Assembly: GCA_021163505.1 (NCBI GenBank)
Contig: JAGGVE010000028.1
Coordinates: 1-37,401, forward strand
Length of the DNA stretch: 37,401 bases
From: Candidatus Iainarchaeum sp.
Lineage (GTDB): Archaea; Iainarchaeota; Iainarchaeia; Iainarchaeales; DTGL01
Direction: 5' to 3'
Below the pieces are notes generated by a model. The model saw only the letters and a program-made list of their open reading frames with translations. It was not told where the DNA came from and did not search any database. A program made the translations under genes and the position numbers. Each line of letters opens with the position of its first letter. The first letter of the stretch is position 1. This document shows positions 11,398-19,130 of the stretch, piece after piece.

Positions 11398-11569
11398 TGG
11401 GGCTGCTGGGATTTGAACCCAGGTCGCCAGCTGTTTTGGTCATCAAGGACCTTGTGGCAGTACAAAAACACTCCACTACGAACATCACTAGGTTGCTGGA
11501 GGTGTCGGAACCCGCTGGAGGTTCTGACTCCCAAAGCTGGAATGCTAGGCCAGGCTACACCACAGCCCC
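11398..11569 (-). tRNA. tRNA-Pro (UGG) with a 97-nt intron
   Basis: Exon 1 is 11530-11569, the intron 11433-11529, exon 2 11398-11432. The acceptor stem is GGGGCTG/CAGCCCC, the T arm CTGGG-TTCAAAT-CCCAG, and the spliced anticodon arm CCAGC-TTTGGGA-GCTGG (anticodon UGG, proline). The intron is at the canonical 37/38 site. A textbook bulge-helix-bulge forms: UUUG pairs with CAAA between 3-nt bulges GGA and ACA, flanked by the anticodon stem and an inner helix GUCA/UGAC. CCA is not encoded. The intron carries a repeat shared, in opposite orientation, with the tRNA-Trp intron. It sits upstream of the DNA ligase gene on the same strand. Confidence 0.95.
11491..11524 (-). repeat. shared intron repeat, copy in tRNA-Pro intron
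   Basis: This 34-nt segment matches 18897-18931 at 31 positions, differing only in a short central spacer (three versus four bases). Here the repeat is on the minus strand, the sense strand of the tRNA. In tRNA-Trp the same repeat is on the plus strand, antisense to that tRNA. It contains the stem GAACC / GGGTTC and two CCTCCAGC boxes. Confidence 0.9.
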
Positions 11570-17028: not shown

Positions 17029-18474
17029 CTAATATGCTCTGGCAAAGTAGCTTTTGCGCTTTGCTGGTTTGCCGCAAAAGAAGCATTTAGCATCTGCCTC
17101 CTTCTGATCCAAAGGAATAACCCTGTTAGTTGCTGCACTCTGCTTCTTAATCGCTTTTTCGCACTTAGGGGTCTCACAGAAGTAGCCATAAGCCATTTTG
17201 CCTGCCTTTATCGCTTTTAAGAATTCCTCCCTATTGTTTACTTCAACAGTGTTTTCCTGCAAAAACTTCTTTGCTTTTTCGAAGAGCGCTTTTTGAATAG
17301 TTTCCAAAGTTTCTTTCACTTTACCTTCGATCTCGCTCAAAGGAACAACTATCTTTTCATTGTTATCGCGTCTTACAAGTACTGCTTGCTTCTTCTGCAA
17401 ATCTTTTGGACCAAGTTCTATCCTCAGCGGGATTCCATAAAGCTCCCATTCATTAAATTTCCAGCCAGGTGTATACTGCTCGCGGTCATCAACTATAGGG
17501 CTGAATTCAGCCAATCTTTTTGCAAGTTCTCTGCACTTTTCAAGCACTTTTTTCTTTGAATCAGCAAAGTATATAGGCACTATAACCAACTTATTTTCAG
17601 CAATTTTTGGTGGAATTATTGCACCTTTATCATCACCATGCACTAAAACCATCGCACCAATTAGCCTTGTACTTATCCCCCAGCTGGTTTGCCAAACATA
17701 CTTTTTCTTCCCATTCGCATCTAAAAACTTTATTCCGAATGCTTTCGCAAAGTTTTGTCCAAGAAAATGTGATGTGCCCATCTGCAATGCTCTGCCACTA
17801 GGCATTAGCGCTTCCATTGTGAAAGTATACTCCGCGCCTGGAAACTTTTCAAGCTCTGTTTTCTTGCCTGCTACAACAGGTATTGCTAAGTAGTTTTCTA
17901 TCAGATCAATATACTCCTTTAAAATTGTGAGTGCCTCTTTCTCTGCTTCCTCACGAGTAGCGTGAGCGGTATGTCCTTCTTGCCAGAGAAATTCGCGTGT
18001 TCTTAAAAAAGGTTTTGGATGCTTGAATTCCCAGCGCACTACGCTACACCACTGATTCAGAAGCAATGGCAGGTCTCTATGCGAGCGAATCCACTTAGCG
18101 TAGCTTTCATAGAAAATAGTTTCGCTTGTTGGCCTTACCGCTAACCTTTCCTCGAGCTTTTTAGCACCTGCTCTTTCAACCCAAGCTACTTCTGGTTCAA
18201 AGCCTTCAACATGCTCTTTTTCCTTATCAAAAAGATGCTCCGGGATAAAAAGCGGGAAGTAAACATTTTTGTGCCCCAAACGCTTTATCTTTTTATTGAA
18301 TATTTCCTGAATTTTTTCCCATATTGCATAAGCGTTGGGCCTAATAACCATACAACCGCTAACGCTTGTATAGTCAGCAAACTTTGCTTTCTGTATTACT
18401 TGCGAATACCATTCACTAATATTTTCTTCTTTCTTAACTGTAATTCCAAGCTGCTTCTTTGCATCTTCTACCAT
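17029..18474 (-). CDS. proS: prolyl-tRNA synthetase, archaeal type
   Basis: Charges tRNA-Pro; both tRNA-Pro genes in this window are its substrates. With ATG 18474 it has 481 residues. Class II features are clear: VAWVERAG, VRPTSETIFYESYAKWIRSH, the motif 2 region RWEFKHPKPFLRTREFLWQEGHTAH and the proline-site region PGAEYTFTMEALMPSGRALQMGTSH. The C-terminal zinc domain has C-x4-C and C-x2-C and ends in Tyr, as in archaeal/eukaryotic ProRS. A GTG at 18483 would add three residues, but a GGTG motif overlapping it lies six bases before ATG 18474, so the ATG is preferred. Confidence 0.96.
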   Translation of the reverse strand: MVEDAKKQLGITVKKEENISEWYSQVIQKAKFADYTSVSGCMVIRPNAYAIWEKIQEIFNKKIKRLGHKNVYFPLFIPEHLFDKEKEHVEGFEPEVAWVERAGAKKLEERLAVRPTSETIFYESYAKWIRSHRDLPLLLNQWCSVVRWEFKHPKPFLRTREFLWQEGHTAHATREEAEKEALTILKEYIDLIENYLAIPVVAGKKTELEKFPGAEYTFTMEALMPSGRALQMGTSHFLGQNFAKAFGIKFLDANGKKKYVWQTSWGISTRLIGAMVLVHGDDKGAIIPPKIAENKLVIVPIYFADSKKKVLEKCRELAKRLAEFSPIVDDREQYTPGWKFNEWELYGIPLRIELGPKDLQKKQAVLVRRDNNEKIVVPLSEIEGKVKETLETIQKALFEKAKKFLQENTVEVNNREEFLKAIKAGKMAYGYFCETPKCEKAIKKQSAATNRVIPLDQKEADAKCFFCGKPAKRKSYFARAY

Positions 18475-18500
18475 TGTGCGCACCTAAACCAAAAATCTGT

Positions 18501-18805: not shown

Positions 18806-18892
18806 ATTTATCACTTAAAAATATTGGAAAAGAGGTTTAAAAATAGATGGGGTCACCGGGATTTGAACCCGGACTAGCAGGTGACTCCCAAC

Positions 18893-18975
18893 ATAGGAAC
18901 CTCCAGCGGGTTCCTATTACCTCCAGCAACCCTATATTGCCTATAGGAACCTCTGTAACCGCAAGCGGTTCCTAT
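18893..18975. repeat. tandem ATAGGAACC hairpin units in the tRNA-Trp intron
   Basis: Two units 50 bp apart each contain ATAGGAACC and GGTTCCTAT, giving identical 9-bp stems (18893-18901 with 18909-18917; 18943-18951 with 18967-18975) and loops of 7 and 15 nt. Both are followed by TACCT. A weaker third stem, GGAAC/GTTCC, lies at 18991-19006. The array makes up much of the intron. Confidence 0.9.
18897..18931 (+). repeat. shared intron repeat, copy in tRNA-Trp intron
   Basis: This 35-nt segment matches the tRNA-Pro(UGG) intron segment 11491-11524 at 31 positions, but in the opposite orientation relative to the host tRNA. As RNA the two introns are therefore complementary: blocks of 13 and 18 bp around a 3 x 4 nt internal loop. 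Confidence 0.9.
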
Positions 18976-19026
18976 TACCTTGGCTGCGTGGGAACCGCCA
19001 TGTTCCTCGTTCTCACCTGCTTGTCG

Positions 19027-19055
19027 TCATCGCTCATAAGAGCTCAGTGCTCCAG
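19027..19055 (-). ncRNA. candidate box C/D guide element in the tRNA-Trp intron (target C34)
   Basis: On the RNA strand an antisense element CUGGAGC (19055-19049) is followed by one base and the D'-type box CUGA (19047-19044). Then come a GCUC-UUAU-GAGC hairpin and GAUGA (19031-19027), a C'-like box. The antisense element pairs with positions 31-37 of tRNA-Trp, and the fifth base upstream of CUGA pairs exactly with C34, as the D+5 rule requires. This matches the known function of the euryarchaeal tRNA-Trp intron. A clear partner C box was not found, so the sRNA may be degenerate or act as a circle. Confidence 0.5.
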
Positions 19056-19130
19056 TTGAATATGACTGGAGCCTGCTGGGCTGCCTGGTTACCCCATGAC
19101 CCCACACAATAGAATATGGTTTGCAGGTTT

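Follow-up and report, generated by a model that had tools for sequence, protein, structure and literature searches.

Introduction

The tRNA-Trp intron guide is the textbook example of a functional archaeal tRNA intron. In Haloferax it was shown that the homologous intron directs Cm34 and Um39 (PMC4090602, PMC7994747). PMC6770171, citing archaeal biochemistry, gives symmetrical two-domain box C/D RNPs as essential in archaea, and the permuted construct with a single domain that was made in that work showed no activity in Xenopus oocytes. Here we describe the tRNA-Trp intron found in a stretch of 37,401 nucleotides (the window) from an archaeon that likely belongs to DPANN, given its small genome and an intron form common to it and two metagenome-assembled genomes (MAGs) labelled Nanoarchaeota. 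We consider it probable that this intron guides Cm34 as a box C/D RNA with a single K-turn and a circularly permuted order, that it favours cis action and that it acts before splicing.

Results

The window contains one tRNA-Trp(CCA) gene, which lies on the minus strand (19103-18848) and by exon parse gives a standard cloverleaf with the acceptor GGGGUCA/UGACCCC. Its 5' exon (19066-19103, minus) ends in ...GGCUCCAG, the last letters being ...GGCTCCAG, and places C34 at 19069 and G37 at 19066; the 3' exon (18848-18882, minus) opens with ACCTGC and holds A38 at 18882, C39 at 18881 and the discriminator A73 at 18848. The intron of 183 nt (18883-19065, minus) occupies the canonical 37/38 position and, as in the euryarchaeal type, comes with a BHB, the core of which is formed by CUCC (19071-19068) and GGAG (18888-18885) with the bulges AG/U and UC/A. 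Since the intron is long, the gene was not called in the window by ARAGORN or the Rfam tRNA model. An Rfam search of the intron returned no C/D or intron family at its threshold.

The distal part of the intron (18890-18980, minus) is taken up by an inserted copy of a dispersed palindromic repeat, GGTTGCTGGAGGTAATAGGAACCCGCTGGAGGTTCCTAT, which is absent from the orthologues and lies outside the guide. Copies were also found on contigs C28, C43, C4, C16, C50 and C19 of genome G000 and at 11491-11524 of the window, the latter enclosed in another long-intron tRNA gene (11398-11569) that was detected by Rfam and missed by ARAGORN; several other copies adjoin tRNA genes, and a tandem array with a spacing of 32 nt is present in G001:C17. 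The repeat holds CUGGAG twice, the identical hexamer to that of guide arm 1. A different palindromic repeat, AT-rich and of the AAAGAGAAAG/CTTTCTTTT type, is inserted so as to separate arm 1 from the 5' splice site in the introns of G006, G005 and G007 (L064, L065, L217), and similar inserts fill the guide-less introns of families f5 and f7.

The original prediction had placed CUGGAGC, one base, CUGA and a GCUC-UUAU-GAGC hairpin in this intron as a guide element positioned on C34, and all of these are present at 19055-19032. Antisense arm 1 (g34; CUGGAGC, 19049-19055, minus) pairs with tRNA positions 31-37, and A19056 lengthens this pairing to the first intron base, U19065. One nucleotide follows before box D (CUGA, 19044-19047, minus), and G19052, the fifth base before box D, faces C34 (19069); a target opposite this base, as in archaeal box C/D guides generally, was found in the window and in all 39 introns that carry the unit. 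Next come the closed C-stem hairpin (19032-19043, minus) and box C (AUGACGA, 19024-19030, minus), with a 3-nt bulge of G19031-A19030-U19029. When the K-turn rules of PMC5689011 were applied to the unit, the closed C-stem, the GAU bulge, the tandem G-A pairs and the 3b:3n and 4b:4n (C-G) pairs could all be recognised, giving the C/D K-turn with 3-nt RAU bulge and tandem G-A pairs of an archaeal guide. Three features of the window speak against the guide reading, namely a box C that departs from RUGAUGA by one base at U5, a 3b:3n pair that is not U:U, and an arm 1 of only 7-8 bp.

The hairpin had been proposed as a C'/D' K-turn with GAUGA directly after the stem and with its partner C box missing. 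The K-turn hairpin is real and covaries; it is, however, a closed terminal C/D K-turn and not a C'/D' pair. A GAUGA abutting the stem was rejected as box C because this register leaves no bulge at all, and AUGANGA behind an RAU bulge suits nearly all members. The register of the window, AUGACGA (19030-19024) behind the GAU bulge, is confirmed by relatives: an exact AUGAUGA is carried by G059, G063, G086 and most of f35, among which G059, G063 and f35 fix the reading. Box C thus sits directly 3' of the hairpin, and had looked missing because the C/D unit is circularly permuted.

Antisense arm 2 (g39; AGCAGGUGA, 19013-19021, minus), identified by complementarity and covariation, spans the 3' splice junction by pairing with 18884-18876. 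The complementarity of this nine-base stretch is perfect, as had been noted (12 of 13 nt in pairing I3). It was offered as either a second guide or a splicing switch; the former role, that of a canonical guide for C39, was rejected because the place expected for a classical D' box (19008-19011, minus) reads AACG. By inspection no C' box was found upstream of g34 in either the linear or the circularised order of the intron, and the second C'/D' motif of an archaeal box C/D guide is absent from the window's intron.

The intron does contain repeats, and chance complementarity within repeat-rich sequence was therefore weighed. In shuffled introns of equal composition CTGGAGC-N-CNGA appeared in 13 of 20,000, and the hairpin with RAUGA was matched in 0.2% of intron shuffles. 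The chief argument against chance comes from other genomes: 39 tRNA-Trp introns of 21 family-level groups have conserved the unit g34-D-[hairpin]-C-g39, with covariation, a set partly assembled by motif, for which the free-spacing test and the held-out genome G006 (both below) offset the bias only partly. As the repeat, moreover, lies outside the guide unit, the probability of chance is practically negligible.

Among the six other members of the window's family, five had a readable tRNA-Trp with the guide unit, and the CUGGAGC/CUGA spacing, the loss of which in close relatives was to tell against the prediction, was kept in all five. In the phylum the unit pattern gave matches in 11 of 87 genomes as compared with 0 of 87 for a reversed-pattern control. 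The pattern matches L146, L158 and L229-L235 were taken as chance, L146 and L158 not being tRNA genes. A covariance model of the unit, built from 12 sequences with G006 held out, recovered G006 as well as tRNA-Trp genes in G007, G057, G076, G079, G080 and G086. Its match in G027 (C193, E 0.042) was also taken as chance, because it does not fall on that genome's intronless tRNA-Trp (C173). Outside the phylum the unit was present in tRNA-Trp of f35, f98, f132, f41, f60, f66, f73, f90, f115, f124 and f64, and in the two Nanoarchaeota-labelled MAGs (L280, L281). Beside its permuted-intron gene, G005 has a second, intronless tRNA-Trp (L184, G005:C18:23914-23950), which resembles that of another family and may stem from transfer or contamination. 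For the prolyl-tRNA synthetase of the window (17029-18483) the closest sequences are spread over archaeal MAGs and Firmicutes, which suggests acquisition by horizontal transfer; it was therefore of no use as a taxonomic marker.

A further point against the guide reading is that several families of the phylum have lost the element or carry it in degenerate form. In f5-f7, f10, f19 and f20 the tRNA-Trp genes that were read are intronless or have introns without a clear unit, in line with the dispensability of the tRNA-Trp intron in Haloferax (PMC4090602), and an exon-pattern search found no tRNA-Trp in f3, f8 and several other families. The introns of G008 (L180) and G015 (L183) have kept the K-turn and the 3'-junction arm 2 and lost the C34 arm 1. 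These two count against a pure C34 guide, since such a guide does not predict them, and they point most clearly to a role of their own for arm 2 and the K-turn, probably at the splice site.

When the spacing was not fixed beforehand, 30 of 34 introns still showed exactly 2 nt between UGGAG and NNGA, which amounts to the D-5 rule on C34 and bears out the predicted target. With one sequence per family, the C-stems formed 2.95 of 3 pairs; when their strands were swapped between families this fell to 1.87, and the highest value in 20,000 permutations was 2.43. The mean helix of arm 2 was 7.4 with its own 3' junction versus 5.3 when swapped (p<=5e-5), and the pairing of arm 1 continues into the initial bases of its own intron (p = 5e-5), both p values being inflated by relatedness within families. 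Arm 2 tracks changes in the anticodon stem (UCGGG for CCCGA in f21, ACUGG for CCAGU in G086) as well as in the last intron bases. Since both arms covary with the first or last bases of the intron, their target would be the unspliced precursor.

Two arrangements of the tRNA-Trp guide could be compared. In classical introns, taken from f28 (Thermococcus/Pyrococcus-like, apparently the Thermococcaceae), f25, f30, f49, f55, f68, f82, f94, f97, f102 and f107, the order is C-g39-D'-C'-g34-D and the BHB helix supplies the stem of the terminal K-turn; a Bathyarchaeota MAG (L282) also has the classical order. In window-type introns the order is g34-D-[closed stem]-C-g39. Both contain the K-turn in which box D of g34 meets box C of g39, and the two forms are therefore circular permutations of one circle. 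A D' (NNGA at the -5 position for 39) was found in 13 of 14 classical versus 3 of 31 permuted introns, and a C' box before g34 in no permuted intron. The locus might be no more than an ordinary euryarchaeal guide with an overlooked box C, and the tRNA, the intron position and the target C34 are indeed identical; this is very improbable, being already contradicted by the order of the elements, and both the C' upstream of g34 and the D' at -5 from position 39 that would direct the second methylation are missing, leaving the arm by itself. Nor does the suggestion that a Haloferax-type guide was simply conserved across a deep split hold in that form, for the order is permuted, the C'/D' K-turn absent and the position-39 arm without D'.

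It is also conceivable that the intron is a normal two-domain guide working in trans, its second K-turn coming from a strongly deviant C'/D' across the circular junction, from intron dimers or from a separate RNA. Archaeal trp introns form circles after excision (PMC7714728, PMC12558985), the Haloferax intron was reported as trans-acting (PMC7994747), and the permuted introns of G059 and G057 hold a D'-like AUGA/ACGA. The scarcity of D', the lack of a C' match and arms that pair with intron bases missing from the spliced tRNA argue against it, as do the guide-hairpin loops of G080-G082, which at 3-5 nt favour cis action; we regard this reading as improbable.

In unconstrained folds the cis guide-target hairpin was part of the MFE structure in 36 of 38 permuted precursors, and the guide fold was better than the BHB splicing fold by a median of 8.75 kcal/mol, whereas classical precursors formed the guide hairpin in 6 of 16 cases with a difference of 1.8 kcal/mol, all energies being those of naked RNA. 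The genome encodes fibrillarin, Nop5 and L7Ae, the core proteins of a box C/D guide; the L7Ae-domain family has two matches, the functions of which are not separated. The folding energies and the covariation lend support to the putative splicing switch of the original prediction. In its strict form such a switch would not methylate at all: the arms and an L7Ae-bound K-turn would hide both splice sites, their release would control maturation of tRNA-Trp, and the D-box spacing would be a relic. That each arm spans a splice junction, that arm 2 is conserved though it has no D' box, and that G008 and G015 do without arm 1 would all suit it. A mere lock, however, needs no fixed D spacing, and fibrillarin and Nop5 are at hand, so that a switch in place of a guide seems unlikely.

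Discussion

The intron most likely guides a methyl group to the anticodon of its own tRNA. According to the cis guide that we favour, arm 1 would fold back in the unspliced precursor on anticodon positions 31-37 and the first intron bases, a pairing that would set C34 at a distance of five bases from box D. One K-turn would be made up of box D, the closed stem and box C; it should bind L7Ae, and L7Ae could then recruit Nop5 and fibrillarin for 2'-O-methylation of C34. Arm 2, by its pairing over the 3' splice site, would keep the anticodon stem and the BHB splicing signal from forming until the guide fold is resolved, and methylation would precede splicing; thereafter the arms would release and the BHB could form. 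The sequences themselves show the elements with their spacing, conservation and covariation, the permuted order, the lack of D' and C' and the genes of the three proteins; L7Ae binding, RNP assembly, C34 methylation, the order of these events and action in cis rather than in trans are inferred.

If active, the permuted guide conflicts with the rule of symmetrical two-domain archaeal box C/D RNPs, which makes a single-K-turn guide directly testable. Three readings would account for the conflict: a second domain supplied out of sight, an exception that occurs in nature, or introns that are not catalytic. Whether they form a natural archaeal class of single-K-turn cis box C/D guides, that is, permuted tRNA-Trp introns, mainly of archaea with small genomes, that direct methylation to the wobble base of their own precursor and couple it to splicing by occupying both splice junctions, is in our judgement an evenly balanced question. 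For this lineage the permuted form would also inform the choice between cis and trans action, given arms that pair with intron bases and hairpin loops that can be as short as 3-5 nt, and permuted introns offer a covariance-based handle on when and how archaeal C/D guides were rearranged.

Searches of open-access literature turned up neither a permuted guide in a tRNA-Trp intron, nor a DPANN tRNA-Trp guide, nor a natural archaeal single-K-turn guide. What appears to be new is the permuted form; tRNA-Trp introns with C/D guides (PMC4090602, PMC7994747) were already known, as was a single C/D sRNA that is permuted and free (PMC3491384). The latter, sRNA24 of Nanoarchaeum equitans, is likewise a permuted C/D sRNA gene of a DPANN archaeon, but it is a free sRNA flanking a split gene and not part of a tRNA intron, and its boxes come into order only in the circle, whereas the D-C K-turn of the window forms already in the linear precursor. 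The same organism has a C/D-like sRNA inside its tRNA-Met intron (PMC3491384), a likeness that concerns a different tRNA and is stated without comparing the order of the elements. Single-domain box C/D guides from Drosophila and Xenopus work (PMC6770171) share the one K-turn and one antisense element, but are engineered eukaryotic RNAs with the order C-guide-D. The closest known counterpart is the euryarchaeal tRNA-Trp intron guide (Haloferax volcanii; Pyrococcus sR50), which agrees in the tRNA, the intron site, the antisense arms directed at the regions of C34 and position 39, the D-5 placement of C34, and the K-turn between box D of g34 and box C of g39. The window form differs from it in its permuted order, in a K-turn stem made by a closed hairpin and not by the BHB helix, in having no C'/D' K-turn, and in a position-39 arm without D'; it is probably the textbook guide in a permuted, one-K-turn version that is widely distributed and conserved.
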